Of a stretch of DNA of 53,219 bases, positions 28,227-51,123 are shown in pieces. Positions within the stretch are counted from its first letter, which is position 1; each line of letters opens with the position of its first letter. Under the pieces are notes generated by a model. The model did not search any database. It saw only the letters and a list, made by a program, of their open reading frames with translations, and had not been told where the DNA came from. The stretch comes from Chromatiales bacterium (GTDB lineage Bacteria; Pseudomonadota; Gammaproteobacteria; Steroidobacterales; GCA-2729495). Location of the stretch: positions 1,896,157-1,949,375 of the forward strand of contig CP070671.1 in the NCBI GenBank assembly GCA_020351875.1. Reading direction: 5' to 3'. The translations under genes were made by a program, and so were the position numbers.

Positions 28227-28320
28227 CTAACTTCGGTACAACCGCGTGATCTGCCGACCGGGGGGTCGGGATAACCACAATCGCATCACGCGTTGGGTCA
28301 GCCAGCAGGGGGCAGCCAAC

Positions 28321-30849
28321 ATGCAGACCACAGACCGCTCGAATTGGGTCTGTTGCACCATCATCGGTGCGGCAGTTTTGGCCTTTACCGGCAGCGTCAC
28401 CGCGCAAACCGCCTATGACGAAGACCTGTTAGTCACCGCGCGGAAAGTCGAGGAGAACCCACAGGACATCCCGATCTCCATTTCGGCCTTCACCCAGGAA
28501 AGCCTCCAGAACCTGAACGTGCGGAACCTCGATGAGATCGCACTGTTCACGCCCGGCTTGTCGTTTAACTCTGCGTTTGGCCGGCAGCCGGGTTCCGACC
28601 GGGCATCGATGCGTGGCGTGACCACCATCATTAACGGCGCGGCCAATGCGTCATCCGTCGCGACTTTCGTGGACGGTGTGTATGTCGGTGGCACTACTCA
28701 GCAGACGGAGTTGTTCAACCTGGAGCGCGTCGAGGTGCTGCGTGGACCCCAGTCAGCCCAGTTCGGCCGCGGTACTTATGCGGGTGCGATCAACTACATC
28801 ACCAAGGGCGCATCGGAAGAATTCGAGGGTGACGTGCGGGCCACGGTCGGTGAGAACGACGATTACCGTATTTCCAGCTGGATCAGCGGTCCGCTGATGG
28901 GCGACAAGCTCGGCTTCTTCGCGGGCGCCGGCTATGACACCTACGATGGCGATTACACCAATCGCAAGATCGGCGACACGGCCAACACCCTGGGCCGGGA
29001 AATCGGTGACGACATTGGTGGTGAGGAAACCAAGAGCATCACCGGCAAGATTTACTGGAACCCGACGGACACGATCAGCGTGGTGGCGAAGCTGGGTTAC
29101 CAGGAAACGGACGACGATCACTTCCCGATCTATCTGCAGAACCGCTTCGTGCAGGGACGGAACAACACTACGGCTTTCGATCCCGCTACCCCGATCAAGA
29201 TCAACAACTGCTGCGACCGGACCTTCGACGATCCGCGTGCGCGCGAGTACTATGACGGTGTCGGCCGCAAGATCGGGCCGGTGCAGCTGAACACCGATAT
29301 TCTCGATCAGGCCGGGATCTCCGGTGTCGAGATTGACCGGACACTGGCTGCGGTGACCATCGACTGGGACCTGGACTGGTGGATTCTCGACGGCGCCACC
29401 GCGTCGAGCCTGACCGGCTACGTGGATGACGAGATCAAGCAGGGCCTCGATGCGACTTACGGTGGCTATGAAGCTTTCGACGGCGCGTCGATCGGCGCCT
29501 TCAACCAGATCGACGACGATTCCCAGGAAGACTTCTCGCAAGAACTCCGGCTGACGTCGTCACAGGACCAGGCGCTGCGCTGGGCCGCGGGTCTGTACTA
29601 CTGGCGTGGCGAGACCAAGGAAAACCGCGATGAACGCGCCTATGCCGACCCGGGCACACTGGCCGTGGTGCGGGAAAACCAGCCCTGGTTCTTCGGCGGC
29701 CTGGACCGCACGCGGGTGATCAACAAGGCCGCGTTCGGCAGCCTTTCCTGGGACTTTGCTGAGAAGTGGAATGCGACGGTGGAGGCGCGCTACTCGGTGG
29801 ATGAGGTCAAGGTGCGCAGCCTGAACCAGCCGACCGCACCGGGCTTTGTCGGCGGGCCGTTCTCGGACCGCCTGCGTGTGCAGGACGATTTTGAAAGCCT
29901 GACACCCCGTTACACGCTGACCTGGAGTATTACGGAGGATATGAACCTCTATGGCAACGTGGCGAAGGGCACGAAGCCGGGCGACGTGAATACCAGTATC
30001 CCCAATACACCGGCGGGTGATCCGGACGAGTCGAAACGCTTCGTGGACGAAGAGGAAGGCTGGATGTACGAGCTGGGCATGAAGTCCACCTGGTTCGACG
30101 GCCGGGCGCTGTTCAATGTCGCGGGCTACTACTTCGACATCAGTGACCAGCAGCTGACACAGAACGTGAGCTTCCCGGGCGGCCTGTCGAGCTCCTTCCT
30201 GGACACGGTCGGTGAGACGGATGTGTGGGGCCTGGAACTGGAGGGCTCCATGCTGTTCGGCGACTACCTGACCGTCGGTTTCACTTATGCCTATACCGAT
30301 TCCGAGTTCGACGAGTACGTGAACCAGGACCAGGCGGACCTGCGTGGCAGTGACGGGTCGAACGCCGCACCCGACTTCCAGAACGACACGCTGGGTGACG
30401 TGAGCGGTTTCGATTCGCCACGGGTGCCCGAGAATATGTTCTCGTTGACCAGCCGCTACGAGCGTCCCTTTGGCCGCGACGGGAGCTGGTTCGTCGGCGC
30501 TGATTACGGCTGGGAAGATTCGAAGTACGCGCAGGTGCATAACCTGATCGAGACGGGCGAGCGCAGTGACCTGCGCGCGCAGGCGGGCGTGGCCTTTGGC
30601 CCGTGGTCGCTGGTGGTCTGGGGCAAGAACCTGACCGAAGACGAGAGCGCCATCGACATCATCAGATACGTCGACCGCAGTCGCTTCGAGGAACCTGGGG
30701 GCCTGCTGCCGGGCTGCGCCACGCTGAACCCGGGTGCGATCTGCACGGATACCAGCCCGTCCGTCAGCCCGCGCGGTTTCGGCCTGACCCTGCCGCGCAA
30801 ACGCCAGTTCGGCGCCACGGTGACCTACAAGTTCGGCGGCAACCTGTAG
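28321..30849 (+). CDS. TonB-dependent outer-membrane receptor
   Basis: The protein has 842 residues from the ATG at 28321, behind an AGGGGGC site. The signal peptide ends near TAQT. A TonB-box-like stretch DEDLLVTARK follows, then the plug: IPISISAFTQESLQNLNVRNLDEIALFTPGLSF, SMRGV, FVDGVYVGGTTQQTELFNLERVEVLRGPQSAQFGRGTYAGAINYIT. The barrel is typical of large TonB receptors of the siderophore/organic-substrate type (TYTLTW, MNLYGNVAKGTKPGDVN) and ends with ATVTYKFGGNL. It should import a large or scarce ligand across the outer membrane. A MarR regulator and two dyads lie upstream, and an intrinsic terminator follows. Neighbouring HemD-like and HemF-like genes hint at a tetrapyrrole, but this is inference. 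Confidence 0.92.
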   Translation: MQTTDRSNWVCCTIIGAAVLAFTGSVTAQTAYDEDLLVTARKVEENPQDIPISISAFTQESLQNLNVRNLDEIALFTPGLSFNSAFGRQPGSDRASMRGVTTIINGAANASSVATFVDGVYVGGTTQQTELFNLERVEVLRGPQSAQFGRGTYAGAINYITKGASEEFEGDVRATVGENDDYRISSWISGPLMGDKLGFFAGAGYDTYDGDYTNRKIGDTANTLGREIGDDIGGEETKSITGKIYWNPTDTISVVAKLGYQETDDDHFPIYLQNRFVQGRNNTTAFDPATPIKINNCCDRTFDDPRAREYYDGVGRKIGPVQLNTDILDQAGISGVEIDRTLAAVTIDWDLDWWILDGATASSLTGYVDDEIKQGLDATYGGYEAFDGASIGAFNQIDDDSQEDFSQELRLTSSQDQALRWAAGLYYWRGETKENRDERAYADPGTLAVVRENQPWFFGGLDRTRVINKAAFGSLSWDFAEKWNATVEARYSVDEVKVRSLNQPTAPGFVGGPFSDRLRVQDDFESLTPRYTLTWSITEDMNLYGNVAKGTKPGDVNTSIPNTPAGDPDESKRFVDEEEGWMYELGMKSTWFDGRALFNVAGYYFDISDQQLTQNVSFPGGLSSSFLDTVGETDVWGLELEGSMLFGDYLTVGFTYAYTDSEFDEYVNQDQADLRGSDGSNAAPDFQNDTLGDVSGFDSPRVPENMFSLTSRYERPFGRDGSWFVGADYGWEDSKYAQVHNLIETGERSDLRAQAGVAFGPWSLVVWGKNLTEDESAIDIIRYVDRSRFEEPGGLLPGCATLNPGAICTDTSPSVSPRGFGLTLPRKRQFGATVTYKFGGNL

Positions 30850-30873
30850 GCGCGGCCAATTCTTGGCACAATG

Positions 30874-30907
30874 CGGCCGGGGCTTTTGCCCCGGCCGTCT
30901 TTTTTTG
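30874..30907 (+). terminator. Intrinsic terminator after the TonB receptor
   Basis: A stem of cggccggggc (30874-30883) and gccccggccg (30888-30897) with a TTTT loop is followed by tctttttttt. It sits 24 bases after the receptor stop. This position also argues against the upstream start at 30863 for the next gene. Confidence 0.9.
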
Positions 30908-30916
30908 GGCTCGAAG

Positions 30917-31843
30917 GTGATACGTAGATTTCCCGCTGGCTGGCTGATCCTGCCTTTCGTGTGCGGACTGTTCTTCCAGCCCGTCACGGCGGCCGAGCAC
31001 GCGGCCGCGCTCACCAAACGCGAGACCGCGCTGATCGCGCGCGCCGACCTGCCGCTGTACGGCAAGACCGTGCTGTACACCACGCCGCGCAACTACGCGG
31101 GCAAACTCGGCCGGCTGCTGATCGAGCGTGGTGCGCGGCCGATCTGGATGCCGACTATCTACATCGAGCCGGTGGCCGACTACCGCGTGTTCGATAAAGC
31201 GCTGCGCGAGCGCGACAGGTACGACTGGATTGCGTTCACGAGCCGCAACGGTATCGACGCTTACCTGAACCGGATGGACGCGCTCGGGCTGACACCAGGG
31301 GACGTGATTGGATTGAAGGCCGCGGCCATCGGCAACGATGCCGCGCTGCTGAAGCAGGCGGGGATCACACCGGTGCTGGTGCCGCCGACGCCGAGCCCGA
31401 TCGGCATCGTGAGGGAGCTGGAACGCCGCGGTGTTACCAGCGGCACCGTGCTGGTGCCGGCGCCGGATGTGATCGGCATGGAAGAACCGCGCGTAGTGCC
31501 GAAGTTCATCGAGAATCTCGAAGCGATTGGCCTGACCACGAAGCGTGTGCCGGCCTACGTGACGGCGCGGGAGACCGAAGACCTGGAACTCGGCACCCGC
31601 CTGTTGCTGGCCGGCGAGATCGACATGATCGCGTTCACCAGCCGCGGCGAGATCGAGAGCCTGTTGCTACACCTGGGTGACGACAGCGGCGTGCTGAACG
31701 ACAAGACCGTGCTGGCCTGCTTCGGACCCATCACGTCGGCCGGGGCGGAACTGCGCAACCTGCGGGTCGACGTGGTGGCGAAGGACTATTCGCGCTTCGA
31801 GGGCTTCGTGGCGGCGATGGAAGACTATTATCGCAGCCGTTGA
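30917..31843 (+). CDS. Uroporphyrinogen-III synthase-like (HemD-fold) protein with signal peptide
   Basis: The protein has 308 residues from a GTG at 30917, chosen because the upstream frame runs through the receptor's terminator. Residues 1-26 form a signal peptide (GWLILPFVCGLFFQPVTAAE). The HemD pattern follows: YGKTVLYTTPRNYAGKLGRLLIERG, PTIYIEPVAD, YDWIAFTSRNGIDAYLNRMD, GLKAAAIGNDAALLKQAGI, VLVPAPDVIG, VPAYVTARET, DMIAFTSRGEIESLL, VLACFGPITSAGAELRNL and a closing FEGFVAAMEDYY. Both half-domains of the bilobal fold are present. Known HemD is cytosolic and closes hydroxymethylbilane to uroporphyrinogen III, so an exported copy is unusual and may bind rather than make a tetrapyrrole. Confidence 0.85.
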   Translation: MIRRFPAGWLILPFVCGLFFQPVTAAEHAAALTKRETALIARADLPLYGKTVLYTTPRNYAGKLGRLLIERGARPIWMPTIYIEPVADYRVFDKALRERDRYDWIAFTSRNGIDAYLNRMDALGLTPGDVIGLKAAAIGNDAALLKQAGITPVLVPPTPSPIGIVRELERRGVTSGTVLVPAPDVIGMEEPRVVPKFIENLEAIGLTTKRVPAYVTARETEDLELGTRLLLAGEIDMIAFTSRGEIESLLLHLGDDSGVLNDKTVLACFGPITSAGAELRNLRVDVVAKDYSRFEGFVAAMEDYYRSR

Positions 31844-31885
31844 CCGCGTTGCGCGGGACGGCTGCACCAAGCGCGGTATAAGCGA

Positions 31886-32359
31886 ATGACGATGAATACG
31901 ATTCCTGGCCGGTTGTTCGGCGGTTTGCTGGTCGCCGCCACGCTCGCGGCCTGCGGAGGCAACGGAGATAACGCGGTCACAGAAGAGCCGGGCGTCGCTA
32001 CGGAACCTCAGTCTCTCGCTGCGCCGGCGACAACACCGCCGGAGCCTGCGGCGGCGGCTGAGCAGGCCGAGGACGTGGCGACGGGAAACGAGCAGATGGC
32101 GGAGGCTGCGGCGGAGATGGCTGCCGAGGTGGCCGCGGTCGAACAGGTCGCGGCGCAGTCCGGCGAACAGAAAGCGCAACCGTGCCTCAGTTGCCACTCG
32201 CTGGATAATTTCGCGTCCTTCGACGTCCCGAAACTCGAGGCGGCCATGCAGTCGATGCGGACCGGCGAGATGGCCCACCTGCCGTTGCCGGACAGCGTGA
32301 GCGATGCGGACGTGGCGGAGATCGCGGCCTACCTGGCGGGGGCTGGCGCGGATGGCTGA
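31886..32359 (+). CDS. c-type cytochrome lipoprotein
   Basis: The protein has 157 residues. The lipobox is TLAAC (Cys23). Residues 25-98 are a low-complexity Ala/Glu/Pro stretch that probably serves as a flexible linker away from the membrane. Then comes one heme motif, CLSCH (100-104), with Met residues at 121, 124 and 129 as axial candidates, and a C-terminal DADVAEIAAYLAGAG helix typical of small cytochromes c. It is likely a membrane-tethered electron carrier. It lies 42 bases after the HemD-like gene on the same strand. Confidence 0.85.
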   Translation: MTMNTIPGRLFGGLLVAATLAACGGNGDNAVTEEPGVATEPQSLAAPATTPPEPAAAAEQAEDVATGNEQMAEAAAEMAAEVAAVEQVAAQSGEQKAQPCLSCHSLDNFASFDVPKLEAAMQSMRTGEMAHLPLPDSVSDADVAEIAAYLAGAGADG

Positions 32360-32421
32360 GCACCGGCCCGGCGCAAAATCCCCCGCTAGATCGCGGCCAG
32401 CGCTGTGTTCGCCGCCGCTTC

Positions 32422-33174
32422 TCAGTACCGGACCTGCGGCGGGAAGCCGTAGGCCTCGATCACGGACATTGGCACGCCGCTCTTGCGGGCAAACTGGATG
32501 CCGATGTCTTCCAGCATCAGCCACTCGACGAGCCGGGCACGGTGCCGGTTGGTCTCTCGATAGTCCGCATCGGTGGGCTCGTCCTCGGCAGTCATCGCTA
32601 ACACCTCGCGATAGGCTGACAGCGTGGCGTCGAACAGCGCGTCCAGCGGTGGCTCGTCACTGGCCTGGTAGAAATCCATGATGCCGCACTCGGCGGCGAT
32701 GCCGGCCAGGATCCGGCCGGGCTCGGCCTTGTAGCGCTTGGCGAAATCGCCGCCGGCGCCTTCGTACGCGGGGCGCAGCGCGTCGGCGAACAGGGCCTGG
32801 GCTTCCGGTTGCGGCTCGCCCGTCTGCACCACGAGATCGATGCACACCACGACCGAGCGGCCGGCACCCTCGGTCTCGTTGGTATTCAGCAGCACGATCA
32901 GGCCCGGCACTCGCGGATTTGCCGGGTAGGCGAGGGTTTCGAAGAGCTTGATGCTGCCGGGCCGGCCGTAGATTTCGCCGTCGACGATGTGCATCAGCGA
33001 GTAGCCGGCCTTCTCCAGCACCGGCCCGCGCGACACCTGCGAGTAGCAGTACCAGTTGTCGCCCTCGGTTTCGCGTGGTGTTTCGGCGGCATCGGCACCG
33101 TTGATCGCGGCGTAGAACTCGCGCAGCCGGGCCGGGTAACTGTCGCGGGGGTGCTCGAAATCAGTCCGGTTCAT
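32422..33174 (-). CDS. Divergent coproporphyrinogen-III oxidase (HemF)-like protein
   Basis: The protein has 250 residues and no signal peptide. I see a HemF-like pattern: GDNWYCYSQVSRGPVLEKAGYSLMHIVDG (HemF has a glycine-rich stretch then FEKAGVN.S.V.G), LAYPANPRVPGLIVLLNTNE (HemF: HPRNP.VPT.H.N.R), and a C-terminus RARLVEWLMLEDIGIQFARKSG..MSVIEAYGFPPQVRY (HemF: EFNL.YDRGT.FGL.TGG...ILMS.P....W.Y). It is shorter than typical HemF (about 300) and strongly diverged, so activity on coproporphyrinogen is uncertain. It follows the DUF1330 gene by 16 bases, downstream of an MFS exporter. Confidence 0.62.
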   Translation of the reverse strand: MNRTDFEHPRDSYPARLREFYAAINGADAAETPRETEGDNWYCYSQVSRGPVLEKAGYSLMHIVDGEIYGRPGSIKLFETLAYPANPRVPGLIVLLNTNETEGAGRSVVVCIDLVVQTGEPQPEAQALFADALRPAYEGAGGDFAKRYKAEPGRILAGIAAECGIMDFYQASDEPPLDALFDATLSAYREVLAMTAEDEPTDADYRETNRHRARLVEWLMLEDIGIQFARKSGVPMSVIEAYGFPPQVRY

Positions 33175-46447: not shown

Positions 46448-47974
46448 CTACTGCTGACTTTCCAGCTCCGCGGCGTCGAAGATCGCCGCGAACTTGGCAT
46501 GAAAGCGCCCCGGTGTGAAGGACTCCGCCGCGTCACGGACGATGTCCACCGTGACCCGCGTGCCGCGCTCGCGCGCGATCTTCTGCGACGCCTCGTACAC
46601 CTTCTTCACGGCAAACGTCCGCACGAACTGGGGCACCGCGAGGGAGATCTGCTGCAAGGCCTGTTCCGCCGCCACGTCCCAGTCGGCTCCTCCTGCCGAG
46701 ACTTCACCGGCGACATCGCCCTTGGTATCGATCAGCAGCTTCGTGACGGTGTTATTGACTGCGGTTTGCACCAGGTGCTTTGCGCCCATCAGCCCCATGA
46801 AGGGACCGACTTCCGATGCGACATAGCCGGCGGTGGGGATATCGGCCACCACGAAGTTCTGGATGCCTTCCTCGGAGGCCAGTTTCTGGTCGTAGAAATT
46901 GCCGAAAATCAGGTTGGGTCCGGTCTCTACGAACCGCTCCTTCTTCAGGTCGAGCGTGGGCGACACCAGCACTTCTTCACAGCTGGCGGCCACGCGTTCG
47001 CCAGCCTCGGGGTTGCTCAATGACACCAGCGGCACCTTGATGCCCACCTCTTTCTTGAAGAACTCGGCAATCCCCAGCGCGTAGGTGTTGTGGTTTTCGA
47101 AGGACAGCGCCGTGCTGAGTTCAAAGGTGGTGCCGAACACCAGGTTCGAACGAATGAAGTGGGTGGCGTTCTGCACGCAGCTCGCAAGATACCGCTTGAT
47201 ATCCATATCGAAGTGGTCTGCGATCTGCTCGAGCCAGCGCAGTGAGTTGTCGAAGCCAATCGGCACGATATCGGCCATGTAAGGGACGCCAAAGCGCTCT
47301 TCCATTACTTCCGCAGTTTCCACACCGTAATCGAAGGGATACATGCAGAGGTTCAGCTCGGCGGCCGGTGCGTTCTGGATTTCTGCAAAGGTCGCGCCGG
47401 CTGACAGCACCGCGTTCACCTGGATGCCGATCTCGCTCAGCATGCGCTTGAGCTCATAGACGTCGGCCCGCCAGTTGAACATGCACAGCGCCGGGCCGAT
47501 CAGGTTCACCGAGCGCGGCCGTTTTTCGGCATCGCCGTCCATCAAGTCGATCAGCGTCTGGAAGGCGGCTTCTTTGCCCTGGTTGCAAGACTCACCGATG
47601 GCCGGGCGCACGACTCGCGTGTTCGGGTAACCGATGCGCTCGCACACGCCTTCGGCATCGTCCTGGCTGGTTTCGGTGACGGGGGAGGTCACGACGAACA
47701 GCGCGGCGGGCCGCTGTTCCTTGATCGCATCGATCACGTTGGCGAGCTGTTCCTCGCCCCCCTTCATGACCGAAGAGAACTTCAGGTGGGAGGTATACAG
47801 CTCCATCGGCCAGTCGTTCATCAGCGCGTTGTTGTGCATGTTGAAGTAATAGCCCGGCGCGGAATGGATGATCGTGCGTGCGTCTTCGATACCCATCAGC
47901 GCCCACACCACGCCCTCGAAGGACGACGGCGTGTGCAGCTCCTGGAGTTTGAATTGTGGCTGGCTGTCGTTCAT
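46448..47974 (-). CDS. Nitrogenase-like component 1, NifK/BchB-like subunit
   Basis: The protein has 508 residues. The NifDK/BchNB superfamily pattern is visible: SFEGVVWALMGIEDARTIIHSAPG, FSSVMKGGEEQLANVIDAIKEQRPAALFVVTSPVTETSQDDAEGV, SVNLIGPALCMFNWRADVYELKRMLSEIGI and ELNLCMYPFDYGVETAEVMEERFGVPYM. The C-terminal residues 431-485 (DWDVAAEQALQQISLAVPQFVRTFAVKKVYE) match the PCP_red-type tail of BchB/BchZ. Where NifK has a cluster cysteine (HGPxxC) and BchB an aspartate (HAPxGD), this has HSAPGYY, so the usual ligand is missing. It is last in the operon, one base after the D-like gene. Substrate is unknown. Confidence 0.85.
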   Translation of the reverse strand: MNDSQPQFKLQELHTPSSFEGVVWALMGIEDARTIIHSAPGYYFNMHNNALMNDWPMELYTSHLKFSSVMKGGEEQLANVIDAIKEQRPAALFVVTSPVTETSQDDAEGVCERIGYPNTRVVRPAIGESCNQGKEAAFQTLIDLMDGDAEKRPRSVNLIGPALCMFNWRADVYELKRMLSEIGIQVNAVLSAGATFAEIQNAPAAELNLCMYPFDYGVETAEVMEERFGVPYMADIVPIGFDNSLRWLEQIADHFDMDIKRYLASCVQNATHFIRSNLVFGTTFELSTALSFENHNTYALGIAEFFKKEVGIKVPLVSLSNPEAGERVAASCEEVLVSPTLDLKKERFVETGPNLIFGNFYDQKLASEEGIQNFVVADIPTAGYVASEVGPFMGLMGAKHLVQTAVNNTVTKLLIDTKGDVAGEVSAGGADWDVAAEQALQQISLAVPQFVRTFAVKKVYEASQKIARERGTRVTVDIVRDAAESFTPGRFHAKFAAIFDAAELESQQ

Positions 47975-47975
47975 G

Positions 47976-49214
47976 TCAGACCACGGCGTAGCGACTGTTC
48001 AGTTCGCGCCAGTGCTTCCATACCGACGGCCCCGTCATGTTGTTGAAATTTTTGCCGAAATTCAGCGCGTAGTCGTAGCCGTAATCGGCCAGGTAGAAGA
48101 AGATGCAGAACGACGGAATCAGGCGTGCAGACGATTCCGGTTCGGCCTGCATCTCGTTGGCGATCACGGTAGGCTGAATTTCCTCGATTAGCTCATCCAG
48201 TGAGCCGAAATCCTCGTCGATAAAGTTGACGCCGTAGCGTTCTTCCATGATCGCTCGTTCCTGCTTGTAGAACTTGTCTTTCATGGACGGCACTACGAAG
48301 ACCTCGGCACCGAATTCGGCCACGATCTTGCCCATGGACATTTCATTCGCGGGGCCGGAGACCAGCAGCATGCGTACCGGGTCTTCCGCAAACTTCTTCC
48401 TGAGCTTCTCCAGTTCCACGCGAGCTTGCTTCTCCTCCTGGTCTACCAGGTCGTGCAGGGCCTGGCAGCCTTCCTTGTCGGCGACGCGCCGGAAGAAATT
48501 CGTGGTGCCGTCGATGCCCACCGGTATTTCGATGAATTCCACATCCTGCTCGAATTCGGACTCGAGATACTTGCAGCTCTCATAGGAACCCAGGTGAATC
48601 GGGTAGATGTGCTCCGCGCGGGTGATCTTGGCCATTTCATCGATGTGGCCCTCGGGGAACAGGTAGGTGTTCAAGCCCGCTTTTCGCAGCATCGTGCCAA
48701 TCGCACCCATATTGTCGGCATCCTGGCCCGAACGCCCGACGATGCCGATGGCGCCCGGCTCGTGCTCGGTCTTGTCCAGCGTCTGCAGGATGGCGAGCCA
48801 GGACGCGTCCGAGCCCCGCAGCATCGCGTTCGTGTAAACGAAGCCCGTGTTGATCGAGCGGATCCGCAAGCCTGGTATCTCTTCCTCCATTTCCATGCTT
48901 ACGCCCTTCACATCGTCACCATTGAGCTGCGGAATGCAGGTGTTGATGATCACGATCACCTTCGGGTGGTGCTTTTCGTAGACATTGCGAATCTGCTCCT
49001 TCAGGCTGTCGTCGCCGCCGAAGATCACTTCGCTCTTGCTCAGCAAGGTACCCGCGGTGATCAGCTTGGCAGGACGGCAATACAGTGTGGACATCTGGTT
49101 CTCGAACACGCAGGTCTGCGGGCCGTGCACCAGCGGGATCACACCTTCCACCTTGCCCAGCGTCGCCAGCGCCTGGGTTGTGGAGCAGCCGTGCTCGTAG
49201 TTCTTGATGGGCAT
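47976..49214 (-). CDS. Nitrogenase-like component 1, NifD/BchN-like subunit
   Basis: The protein has 412 residues. Superfamily pattern: NYEHGCSTTQALATLGKVEGVIPLVHGPQTCVFENQ, SEVIFGGDDSLKEQIRNVYEKHHPKVIVIINTCIPQLNGDDV, INTGFVYTNA and IGIVGRSGQDADNMGAIGTMLRKAGLN. Cys10, Cys35 and Cys93 correspond in spacing to the three cluster-binding cysteines of NifD/BchN. An extra Cys46 follows in TLYCRPAK. It lacks the FeMo-cofactor Cys/His pair as far as I can see, and is shorter than NifD (about 490). It should pair with the K-like subunit, carrying an iron-sulfur cluster fed by the NifH-like proteins. The gene starts 31 bases after the second H gene. Confidence 0.87.
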   Translation of the reverse strand: MPIKNYEHGCSTTQALATLGKVEGVIPLVHGPQTCVFENQMSTLYCRPAKLITAGTLLSKSEVIFGGDDSLKEQIRNVYEKHHPKVIVIINTCIPQLNGDDVKGVSMEMEEEIPGLRIRSINTGFVYTNAMLRGSDASWLAILQTLDKTEHEPGAIGIVGRSGQDADNMGAIGTMLRKAGLNTYLFPEGHIDEMAKITRAEHIYPIHLGSYESCKYLESEFEQDVEFIEIPVGIDGTTNFFRRVADKEGCQALHDLVDQEEKQARVELEKLRKKFAEDPVRMLLVSGPANEMSMGKIVAEFGAEVFVVPSMKDKFYKQERAIMEERYGVNFIDEDFGSLDELIEEIQPTVIANEMQAEPESSARLIPSFCIFFYLADYGYDYALNFGKNFNNMTGPSVWKHWRELNSRYAVV

Positions 49215-49245
49215 CTGCCGTTTCCTCTCGTCGTTGCGCCAGGGT

Positions 49246-50097
49246 TCAGGCCGCCAGCGTCTTGTTCGCCTGCCACCAGTGGTGGAGTTCGTCGAAGCTC
49301 ATGGGTTCCGGTATCGTCATTAACTTGTTGTTGTAGATATTGTCCGCCAGCTGCTGCATCGCCTCGCACTCGGGCGAGTCCGGCGCATACTGGAACAGGG
49401 TCTCGCCCCTGCCCGAAGCTGCCTTGATCTTCTCACTGTAGGGAACGAAGCCAATGATCTGGGTGCCCAGGCGCGCCGCGAAGCGCTCCAGCACCTCGCG
49501 TTCGTTCTCCATGTTGCGCAGGTTGCCCACGATACCGCCCAGGCGCACACCGGAGCGCTGCGCAAATCGCGCTACGGCCTTGGAAATGTTGCAGGCGGCA
49601 AACAGTGACTGCATCTCACCGCTGGTGACAATGTAGATTTCCTTCGCATGACCCCGCTTGATGGGCATCGTAAATCCGCCGCAGACCACGTCGCCCAGCA
49701 CGTCGTAGAGTATCGCGTCCAGTTCCAGCTTGTTGTGGGCGTCCAGCTTGGCCAGGGTGCGAATCGCTTCCGTCACGCCCTTGCCGGCGCAGCCGGCACC
49801 CGGTTCCGGCCCGCCGCTTTCGGCACAGAAAAGCTGTCCCGGCACGGTGTCGTTCAATGTGCTTTCCAGGACCACGTCTTCAAGCGCGACCTTGCGCGTT
49901 TCAAAATCCACCTTGCGCAGGATATCGAGGATCGCATGCGGAATCCGGCCGGCGAGCAGCAGCCGCGTACTGTCGTGCTTCGGATCACAGCCCAGGTGCA
50001 AGACCCGCAGGCCGCTGTTGGCGAAAGCAAAACTGATGTGCGAGGAGATCATCGATTTACCGATGCCGCCTTTGCCGTAGACTGCTATCTGGCGCAT
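49246..50097 (-). CDS. NifH-like iron-sulfur ATPase B (second of a tandem pair)
   Basis: The protein has 283 residues. The nitrogenase reductase family is clear: YGKGGIGKSMISS (Walker A, residues 8-15, both lysines present), LGCDPKHDSTRLLL (switch I with the NifH-type Lys at position 40), ESGGPEPGAGCAGKG (Cys103) and YDVLGDVVCGGF (Cys139). The two Cys of a homodimeric or heterodimeric pair bind one 4Fe-4S cluster. The Arg that is ADP-ribosylated in NifH is Lys here (GKG). The C-terminus adds a MSFDELHHWW tail. It should transfer electrons to the D/K-like subunits at ATP cost. It follows the A gene by 16 bases. Confidence 0.9.
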   Translation of the reverse strand: MRQIAVYGKGGIGKSMISSHISFAFANSGLRVLHLGCDPKHDSTRLLLAGRIPHAILDILRKVDFETRKVALEDVVLESTLNDTVPGQLFCAESGGPEPGAGCAGKGVTEAIRTLAKLDAHNKLELDAILYDVLGDVVCGGFTMPIKRGHAKEIYIVTSGEMQSLFAACNISKAVARFAQRSGVRLGGIVGNLRNMENEREVLERFAARLGTQIIGFVPYSEKIKAASGRGETLFQYAPDSPECEAMQQLADNIYNNKLMTIPEPMSFDELHHWWQANKTLAA

Positions 50098-50113
50098 AAG
50101 CCTTTGCCGTGCC

Positions 50114-50956
50114 TCAGTTGACGTACGGACACCACCACTCGTACAGCTCCTCGAAGCTCATCGGGTGAGGTGTCGTGGGCTCGTAGTCACTGGCCATGAC
50201 CTGTTCGGCCAGCCGACTATACTTCTCGGCCTCGGTACTGTCCGGATGGTCTTCGAACACGGTCTTGGCCTCGCTGCCGCATTCCTTGACCAACTGACTG
50301 AACGGCAGCACGGCCAGTACCCGCGTATCGGTCTTGGCAGCAAAATCGTTGATGATCTGTTCTTCCCGCTCCAGACCGCGCAGGTTGACGATCAGTCCGC
50401 CCAGCTTTGCGCCCGCCCGTTTCGCGAAACGGTTCACCGCGCCCATCACGTTCACGGCCTGGTACAGGGCCTCGAGCTCGCCGCTGGTGACTAGGTAGGT
50501 TTCCTCGGCAAAGCCGTCCCGAATCGGCTGAGAAAATCCGCCGCAAACGACATCGCCGAGGATATCGTAAATCACGATATCCGGTTGCAGTTCGTCGAAA
50601 ACCTCCAGCCGCTTGAGCGTGTTAATGGCTTCAATCACGCCCTTGCCGCCGCAGCCGACGCCCGGCTCAGGTCCGCCGGCTTCGGCGCAGTACACTGACC
50701 CACCGTTCTCAAAGGGCAGGGGTGACCTGTGGACAATCTCCGCCACCTCGATGTCCTCGTATTCGAAGTCGTGTTCCGTCAGTACGTCGAGAATCGGCTT
50801 CGTGTACTTGTGGAGCAGGTTGTGGGTGCTGTCTCCCATCGGGTCACAGCCCATCAGGAAGACCCGGTGCCCCTGGTTGGCCAAGGCGTAAGCCACATGG
50901 GTGGCGACCGTGCTCTTGCCGATGCTGCCTTTGCCGTAGAGTGCGATCTGTTTCAT
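50114..50956 (-). CDS. NifH-like iron-sulfur ATPase A (first of a tandem pair, variant nucleotide site)
   Basis: The protein has 280 residues from the ATG at 50956. Cluster motifs are intact: EAGGPEPGVGCGGKGVIEA (Cys102) and YDILGDVVCGGF (Cys138). Walker A is GKGSIGKST with Ser11 where NifH and protein B have Gly. Switch I is MGCDPMGDST with Met40 where NifH and B have Lys. The ADP-ribosylation Arg is again Lys. The tail, PMSFEELYEWW, matches B. The changed residues suggest altered or absent hydrolysis, hence a heterodimer with B, though a separate homodimer is possible. It heads the leftward operon and is divergent from an MFS transporter. Confidence 0.9.
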   Translation of the reverse strand: MKQIALYGKGSIGKSTVATHVAYALANQGHRVFLMGCDPMGDSTHNLLHKYTKPILDVLTEHDFEYEDIEVAEIVHRSPLPFENGGSVYCAEAGGPEPGVGCGGKGVIEAINTLKRLEVFDELQPDIVIYDILGDVVCGGFSQPIRDGFAEETYLVTSGELEALYQAVNVMGAVNRFAKRAGAKLGGLIVNLRGLEREEQIINDFAAKTDTRVLAVLPFSQLVKECGSEAKTVFEDHPDSTEAEKYSRLAEQVMASDYEPTTPHPMSFEELYEWWCPYVN

Positions 50957-51123
50957 GTTGAGGTCACAGGACCCTTCTCCCCAATTTCCCAATATACGCC
51001 GGTTTCCGAGCCTGCGTCCCGCCCGCACAGGGCACAGCGGTAGGTAATTTCCGAGGCTGGCCTGCGGCCAACCGCCGACGATGCCGTATGCTTGCGCGCG
51101 GCGGCTTGCCGGTGGGAGGCTAA
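50957..51123. promoter_or_regulatory. Divergent promoter region of the nitrogenase-like operon and MFS gene
   Basis: This 167-base gap separates the H-H-D-K operon from the MFS gene. Read leftward it contains TATATT about 35 bases before the first ATG, a possible -10 box, without a good -35. An imperfect hairpin (ggctggcc/ggccaacc) lies near 51055-51075. Promoter placement is a guess; no operator or terminator could be assigned. Confidence 0.35.

Follow-up and report, generated by a model that had tools for sequence, protein, structure and literature searches.

As far as the accessible part of one account extends (PMC11423573), characterized nitrogenase-like enzymes combine each D-K component with one NifH-type reductase component, which in nitrogenase is a homodimer. 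CfbCD of F430 biosynthesis, likewise built from a NifH-type and a PF00148 protein, acts on a tetrapyrrole (PMC7242693, in extract). Surveys of nifH distinguish further nitrogenase-like lineages, groups IV-VIII, of partly unknown function, and a role in tetrapyrrole cofactor biosynthesis has been suggested for group VI (PMC9391474, in extract). Here, we describe a four-gene operon, HA-HB-D-K, found in a 53,219-nucleotide stretch of DNA (the window) from Chromatiales bacterium contig CP070671.1 (GCA_020351875.1, positions 1,896,157-1,949,375 of the forward strand). The operon encodes two different NifH-type proteins and one D-K pair. On the sequence comparisons given below, this HHDK system forms a conserved nitrogenase-superfamily branch, apart from every family compared; Cfb, MarH/MarK, IsrHDK and nifH groups IV-VIII stand outside the trees. 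No H-H-D-K system was described in the titles and abstract beginnings seen from the literature on nitrogenase-like families and anaerobic chlorophyll breakdown; the likeness to nifH groups IV-VIII is by description, and the clades of that survey could overlap with the HHDK family (PMC9391474, in extract).

Operon structure and family placement

The initial annotation had read four leftward genes, with gaps of 16, 31 and 1 base, as two NifH-like proteins followed by a NifD/BchN-like and a NifK/BchB-like subunit of an uncharacterized nitrogenase-like reductase. The coordinates of the four minus-strand open reading frames (ORFs) and their Pfam matches confirmed the arrangement and the gaps. All four proteins exceed the Pfam gathering scores for the reductases (PF00142) or catalytic subunits (PF00148) of the superfamily. 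Coordinates are positions within the window; L and G numbers are handles for loci and genomes of relatives.

50114..50956, minus strand: HA, NifH-family iron protein A, 280 amino acids (PF00142, 275.2 bits; cut-off 25)
49246..50097, minus strand: HB, NifH-family iron protein B, 283 amino acids (PF00142, 316.8 bits; cut-off 25)
47976..49214, minus strand: D, NifD/NifE-like catalytic subunit, 412 amino acids (PF00148, 181.1 bits; cut-off 28.6)
46448..47974, minus strand: K, BchB/BchZ-like catalytic subunit, 508 amino acids (PF00148, 210.1 bits; cut-off 28.6)

An alternative GTG start of HA at 51028 is open, and the NifH-family match begins at the ATG of the 280-residue form. Pairwise ratios of nonsynonymous to synonymous substitution rates (dN/dS) between the window genes and their L003 orthologues were 0.114 for HA, 0.141 for HB, 0.083 for D and 0.153 for K. 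Given these values, all four genes look to be under purifying selection, and appear to be neither chance ORFs nor visibly decayed. The G+C content of the operon is 59.8%, against ∼65% on both flanks, and its neighbors, compared by eye, differ among three carrier genomes of the window's genus. Together, these two features fit a moved cassette.

None of the named NCBIfam families takes any of the four proteins. Among these models HA and HB scored highest on NifH, with 294.2 and 308.4 bits, respectively (cut-off 394.35), and lower on CfbC (275.8 and 293.7; cut-off 402), BchL (192.5 and 212.3; cut-off 345.15) and BchX. The best model for D was NifE, at 70.4 bits against a cut-off of 505.1, and K scored 148.3 on BchB (cut-off 490.35) and 96.8 on BchZ (cut-off 529); both subunits thus lie far below the cut-offs. 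Scores on BchN and CfbD were 61.7 (cut-off 419.95) and 40.3 (cut-off 268.4). Searched against 5.8 billion proteins, D returned 124 relatives at E 0.001, the lowest identity being 46% among the 120 listed, and a profile search with K gave at least 135 relatives from the 7998 best candidates scored. Where stated, the source organisms were Gammaproteobacteria, Pseudomonadota/Proteobacteria and Desulfobacterota/Thermodesulfobacteriota/Deltaproteobacteria, with Spirochaetota as the source of two relatives (K P0178 and HA P0285) whose contigs have the same length.

In a tree of 35 H rows, including four of NifH type and five of BchL/BchX, HA and HB formed clades with support of 98/96 and 93/94, respectively, which joined as sisters at 96/97 outside the NifH-type and BchL/BchX rows. 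Given that the two clades are sisters, the H duplication, on this phylogeny, preceded the divergence of the gammaproteobacterial and Desulfobacterota-type copies. In a tree of 54 D and K rows, in which MarD is present as one piece only, D and K each formed one clade at 100/100. K joined BchZ (93/88) and then BchB (92/80), and D joined NifD, NifE, MarD and related rows (82/83) rather than BchN or BchY. The tree program flagged long branches, including the long stem branches of the gammaproteobacterial rows, and the deeper joins of this tree are therefore uncertain. Labels of the Bch rows L018-L034 and of the NifE rows L102 and L113 were assigned from gene order and clustering. CfbC, CfbD, MarH, MarK, IsrHDK and nifH groups IV-VIII are absent from both trees, and Cfb was compared through NCBIfam cut-offs alone.

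The subunit labels of the initial annotation are thus roughly right: D is nearer to NifD, NifE and MarD than to BchN, and K is nearer to BchZ and BchB than to NifK. Its call of an uncharacterized reductase is supported by the separate clades and by the conserved H-H-D-K order described below, which are the outcomes of the phylogeny and synteny survey it had proposed, as far as the compared rows reach. None of the four proteins nests within the NifH, BchL, BchX, NifD/K/E/N or BchN/B/Y/Z rows used. It had also noted that partner genes were absent from the window. This absence extends to the whole genome (3.49 Mb, one contig) for PF00148 and for strong PF00142 matches: the only two PF00148 matches are D and K themselves, and the two strong PF00142 matches are likewise in the operon, accompanied by two weak partial ones (E 1.4e-6 and 1.2e-5) that are presumably Mrp/MinD-type ATPases. 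Because D and K are the sole PF00148 genes, the genome-wide PF00148 search leaves no NifEN, BchNB or BchYZ partner elsewhere in the genome. In 12 further carrier genomes the PF00148 matches are intact or fragmentary D and K genes of this family, except for one weak, unassigned match in G406 (E 5e-4).

An ordinary DPOR, COR, Nif or Cfb system overlooked by annotation could be suspected from database names, some K relatives being listed as "light-independent protochlorophyllide reductase B subunit" and some HA relatives as "nitrogenase iron protein NifH." The NCBIfam scores below cut-off, by far so for D and K, the separate clades in both trees and the lack of further PF00148 genes all speak against this explanation, which we regard as barely credible. 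Mo-nitrogenase NifHDK resembles HHDK in the preference of HA and HB for the NifH model and in the grouping of D with NifD/NifE/MarD; it differs in its cofactor ligands, which are unmatched here, in the absence of NifE and NifN from this genome and in the two unlike H genes of HHDK. Unlike HHDK, with its separate and dissimilar D and K genes, CfbCD has a homodimeric CfbD and no NifK homologue, according to the accessible part of PMC11423573; this comparison was made by NCBIfam scores and not by tree.

The pair of unlike NifH-type proteins

HA and HB are 45.9% identical. They lie next to each other, upstream of D and on one strand with it in the order HA-HB-D, in 12 of 12 loci that have both H genes (the window, L003-L010, L013, L015 and L016; 3 from the window's genus and 9 from Desulfobacterota-type genomes). 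K comes next in the 11 of these whose contig continues, although it is frameshifted in L009. The loci L003/L004 and the genomes G003/G001 represent the same genomes. Exactly two PF00142 genes (E 1e-30) were found in 11 of 12 further host genomes. The remaining one, G404, has a single PF00142 gene, and its locus L012 carries D, K with an in-frame stop, and then HB. The L011 and L014 contigs carry D-K without H. The number of D-K sets per genome ranges from one to three (three in G402, two of them with a split gene; two in G406; one plus a lone D in G405). What most distinguishes the HHDK system is this fixed pairing of unlike H proteins.

The equivalents of NifH Lys10, Lys15, Asp43, Asp125, Asp129, Cys97 and Cys132 are kept in 13 of 13 HA rows and 13 of 13 HB rows. 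The two cluster cysteines fall at residues 102 and 138 of HA and at residues 103 and 139 of HB. HB has NifH-like residues at all of the positions Lys10, Lys15, Asp39, Lys41, Asp43, Asp125 and Asp129, with Asp39 and Lys41 conserved in all 13 rows. In HA, Asp39 is replaced by Ser in 9 of 13 rows and Lys41 by Met in 2 of 13, including the window. Of the 120 HA relatives listed, the best of 6886, 39 are window-like; all of these have Asp at position 39, and 34 have Gln or Met at position 41. The other 81 all have Lys at position 41, with Ser at position 39 in 77. Residues of the Asp39/Lys41 type act in the nucleotide-driven switching of NifH. With Asp39 replaced in one lineage and Lys41 in the other, the aligned sequences indicate that switch I of HA is altered in both, through different changes. 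HB would be a canonical ATPase and HA a modified one, each carrying or sharing one [4Fe-4S] cluster. The two probably act together as a heterodimer, the unlike halves of which would face the unlike D and K halves.

Alternatively, HA and HB might form two separate homodimers serving different steps or partners. Apart from Asp39 and Lys41 of HA, the tested cluster cysteines and ATP-site Lys and Asp residues are kept in both proteins, and several D-K sets occur in some genomes, so that more than one partner exists. However, the H genes stay at two while D-K sets range from one to three, and HA adjoins HB in all 12 loci that have both. Separate homodimers, which are compatible with a tetrapyrrole substrate and are not exclusive of it in our estimate, are a serious possibility, albeit the less probable arrangement.

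A further locus was observed in G016, from the window's family, at L038:886-1992. Here, an intact HA is followed by a single open frame composed of the start of HB, the middle of D and the tail of K, which is either a chimeric operon remnant carrying two in-frame deletions or an artifact of assembly.

Cluster ligands and predicted folds of D and K

The residues considered here, and the C-terminal domain of K, lie as follows.

49077..49187, minus strand: D segment with the Cys10, Cys35 and Cys46 codons (alignment of D relatives)
48936..48938, minus strand: D Cys93 codon, third cluster-type cysteine (alignment of D relatives)
47849..47851, minus strand: K Tyr42 codon, aligned with BchB residue 36 (3aet_B) and with a BchZ Cys
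46529..46681, minus strand: PCP_red-like C-terminal domain, K residues 432-482 (PF08369, E 2.9e-5, 24.4 bits, below the 32.5 cut-off)

Cys10, Cys35, Cys46 and Cys93 of D are invariant wherever the residue is present (111, 112, 114 and 117 of 119 aligned relatives, respectively). Cys10 and Cys35 align with cysteines of NifE and MarD chains, and as judged from the alignment D carries three cluster cysteines of the NifD/E type. Cys46 (49077-49079) is a fourth invariant cysteine, unmatched at that column in the NifD/E, BchN and BchY rows shown. Residue 42 of K is Tyr in all 17 relatives that share 60% or more identity with the window protein and Cys in 102 of the 103 more distant ones, the last of which lacks the stretch. 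The D-K component would hold one [4Fe-4S] cluster, bound by three D cysteines and by K residue 42, which is Cys in the majority of the family and Tyr in the clade of the window.

The predicted models of D and K, with a mean predicted local distance difference test (pLDDT) score of 77.2 and 80.3, respectively, are BchN/BchB-like in fold: DPOR chains rank at the top by VIA, and strong matches were also obtained to Nif, NifEN and Mar chains. The VIA lists contain no chain titled BchY or BchZ and are uninformative on likeness to COR. PF08369 exceeds its cut-off (38.8 bits) in the K protein of L006, within an extra C-terminal stretch of that protein. HHDK thus resembles DPOR (BchLNB) in its D-K predicted folds, the PCP_red-like domain on K, the predicted single [4Fe-4S] cluster and the lack of a FeMo-type cofactor, and the D-K component probably has an open substrate pocket as in DPOR. 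It differs in having two H genes rather than one, in its separate clades and in the absence of any other PF00148 gene from the genome. BchB Asp36, which we take to be a cluster ligand, is replaced by Cys or, as in the window, Tyr. BchB Asp274, presumably the proton donor, is not kept in the alignment. The likeness to COR (BchXYZ) lies in K, which is sister to BchZ and has in most members the BchZ Cys at position 42. K is only a sister of BchZ, however, and the window protein has Tyr42 rather than this fourth-ligand Cys; moreover, D falls outside the BchY clade, the H proteins fall outside BchX and there are two H genes.

MarHDK and IsrHDK (group IV) share H, D and K subunits with HHDK. An assignment to group IV (Mar/Isr/Nfl type), with a small organosulfur compound as substrate, would be in keeping with the tree position of D nearest to NifD/NifE/MarD and with its first Foldseek match by E-value, chain 9fmg_A (MarD) of the Mar complex. 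The NifD residues Cys275 and His442, which we assume to be the FeMo-cofactor ligands, are unmatched in D, where a gap and Tyr378 occupy the aligned places. According to the accessible part of PMC12552129, Mar has a P-cluster with three MarK cysteines and an [Fe8S9C] cluster; the alignment gives K at most one such cysteine and D no match to the cofactor ligands. HHDK differs further in its two H genes, and IsrHDK sequences are outside the comparison. No radical SAM gene of the marB/isrB type was found beside H among the six window neighbors tested. A group IV enzyme is considered very unlikely. A MarD piece searched against 349 genomes of the window's phylum gave matches of at most 34% identity, with no clear Mar.

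The Tyr for Cys exchange at K42 and the chimeric remnant in G016 could also mean that the enzyme is decaying or inactive in the window's clade, with which the long stem branches of the gammaproteobacterial rows would agree. This is hard to reconcile with dN/dS values of 0.08-0.15 across the four genes and with the fixation of Tyr42 itself among the 17 close relatives, and decay is judged highly improbable.

Neighboring genes and the proposed reaction

In all nine Desulfobacterota-type loci with HA, a MarR-family gene lies upstream of HA and ends 5-265 bases from it (found by tblastn in L008 and L010), and one also precedes the extra D or D-K genes of L011 and L013. Genes of the bilin-reductase/coproporphyrinogen oxidase (CPOX) fold adjoin or lie near the operon in L003, L005 and L013. 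In L005, K is followed by a NAD-binding gene and then by a gene of the ferredoxin-dependent bilin reductase (FDBR) family PF05996 (54.4 bits; cut-off 31); downstream of the L013 operon are two CbiX/ferrochelatase-like genes, FeoB and one PF05996 gene. The extract of PMC10151467 states that FDBR, red chlorophyll catabolite (RCC) reductase and CPOX have a common fold, that FDBR relatives occur in non-photosynthetic bacteria and that CPOX requires oxygen.

Of 14 genomes with the operon or its remnant, 13 had PF05996 (E 0.01), with 7-18 copies in each of nine Desulfobacterota-type carriers, 2-3 in the gammaproteobacterial carriers and none in G404; among 14 control genomes Synechococcus elongatus alone matched. 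In a 395-genome sample of one phylum, it was present in 10 of the 11 genomes carrying HHDK and in 2 of the 384 non-carriers (Fisher p 3e-17, a value that ignores shared ancestry). The D and PF05996 scans behind these counts appear to cover one and the same set of 395 genomes, since their handles agree. The sample includes all ten carriers already known, and 11 of 395 is thus not a prevalence; a non-carrier is a genome with no D match at E 1e-40, and genomes are often incomplete. PF01218, the CPOX family, checked in 48 genomes at E 1e-5, was found in 8 of 11 Desulfobacterota-type carriers, both PF05996-only genomes and none of 20 others of the phylum sample. In the chosen gammaproteobacterial genomes no clear signal was seen, with 3 of 3 carriers (one below cut-off) and 4 of 12 non-carriers.

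The window itself contains a possible associate, 13 kb from the operon.

32422..33174, minus strand: distant relative of the CPOX family, homologous to the L003 gene that immediately precedes HA

This gene and L003:7427-8188 are 61-62% identical, and a profile of the pair matches a PF01218 protein (probability 96%, E 3.6e-9). Alone, the L003 gene reaches 19 bits on PF01218, under the cut-off, and the window protein has no Pfam match. The pair is called CPOX-family from the profile; an assignment as bilin reductase was rejected, as the pair gave no match to the PF05996 set (E 0.13) while the PF01218 match succeeded. The window gene lies within 28246-33174 together with a TonB receptor gene and a uroporphyrinogen-III-synthase-like gene (30863-31843).

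Several other gene clusters were observed. In G403, three PF05996 genes, one of them fused to a ferredoxin and with an RCC-reductase match, accompany SDR and MarR genes. L132:2694-3674 encodes a two-cluster ferredoxin fused to a PF05996/RCC-reductase-like domain, with two further PF05996 genes, an SDR gene and a MarR gene alongside. A G405 cluster holds PF05996, ferredoxin, AOR and PF01218 genes, and in a Desulfobacterota-type genome L129:7922-8686 encodes a PF01218 protein (E 6.4e-28) adjoining AOR, ferredoxin and PF05996 genes. B12-binding radical SAM genes lie upstream of D-K in L012 and L014, directly so in L014; their BchE/HpnJ scores are far below cut-off, and no match was found in any other of the 15 loci searched.

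Taken together, these data lead to the following proposal. HA and HB would deliver electrons, driven by ATP, via the predicted [4Fe-4S] cluster on a DPOR-like D-K component to the substrate; as judged from the sequences this is the best-supported mechanism. The substrate, with less certainty, would be a tetrapyrrole or its breakdown product, handled together with enzymes of the bilin-reductase/RCC-reductase type, and in Desulfobacterota the MarR regulator may sense it and switch the operon on. Tetrapyrrole-type compounds are the leading inference, and an aromatic ring compound is their main rival. The initial annotation had suggested a tetrapyrrole or another conjugated small molecule as a possible substrate; the DPOR-like predicted folds and the co-occurrence with PF05996 in one phylum lend this indirect support. 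As a whole, a separate branch with two NifH-type proteins and one D-K pair, working as an ATP-driven reductase whose conjugated substrate is likely of tetrapyrrole type, is in our estimate evenly poised between true and false.

The same two-reductase enzyme might instead act on a (poly)aromatic or other hydrophobic ring compound in low-potential catabolic reduction, with MarR as a sensor of the aromatic-acid type. The regular position of MarR upstream of HA would suit such a role, and the one MarR protein scanned scores best on the HpaR model of NCBIfam (53.7; cut-off 121.2). A pyrogallol-hydroxytransferase-like Mo enzyme is convergent with K in L004, AOR-family genes occur in L007 and L008, DUF1302, DUF1329 and MMPL genes in L010, and amidohydrolase and Mo-enzyme genes surround a gammaproteobacterial PF05996 gene. 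However, the neighbors other than MarR are each found in one or two loci, K retains BchB/BchZ architecture with a PCP_red-like domain, and the recurrent companions in Desulfobacterota-type carriers are bilin-reductase-family genes. An aromatic substrate is therefore rated as rather unlikely. In L004 (12822-16690), seen in one genome only, the Mo enzyme (PF21423) stands with a 4Fe-4S dicluster gene. In L128 (G397:C34), a molybdopterin oxidoreductase gene lies beside PF05996, with amidohydrolase and DUF4437 genes nearby, in a setting that resembles a cluster for aromatic catabolism, and similar surroundings of PF05996 were seen by eye in L124 (G000:C1 ∼1966312) and L133.

A number of points weigh against the proposal of a separate, ATP-driven tetrapyrrole reductase. 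BchB Asp274 aligns with Phe in K, in a gapped region; the position of K depends on joins at 93/88 and 92/80 with flagged long branches; and the placement of D in the tree, like its first Foldseek match, disagrees with the VIA ranking. No MarR match was found in the three gammaproteobacterial loci, and for the MarR proteins the HpaR and FabT models give higher scores than BilQ. The carriers in the co-occurrence test may be one lineage. In the window's family the association lacks specificity: PF05996 is present in 22 of 60 genomes, 18 of them without operon or remnant, and the L128 gene sits in a setting suggestive of aromatic-compound catabolism. G404 has D-K, with a stop in K, and neither PF05996 nor HA. 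Finally, the HA and HB clades may already be named in nifH surveys, as groups IV B/C/E, VI or VIII (PMC9391474, in extract).

A bolder form of the tetrapyrrole proposal, which we consider unlikely, would make HHDK the first enzyme of the superfamily with an obligate HA-HB heterodimer. It would reductively degrade tetrapyrrole pigments (chlorophyll or heme debris) in anaerobes with up to 18 paralogues of the bilin/red-chlorophyll-catabolite-reductase type, and its D-K cluster would be tyrosine-ligated in the window's gammaproteobacterial clade.

Surveys of nifH will encounter HHDK genes, HA relatives being already named as nitrogenase iron proteins in their sources. A branch in which two unlike H proteins are fixed would demonstrate that the reductase component can be asymmetric, and a two-reductase enzyme predicted to act on a ring compound rather than in nitrogen fixation would add a new branch to the family. 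If the substrate is a tetrapyrrole, HHDK would be a candidate enzyme for anaerobic tetrapyrrole turnover.

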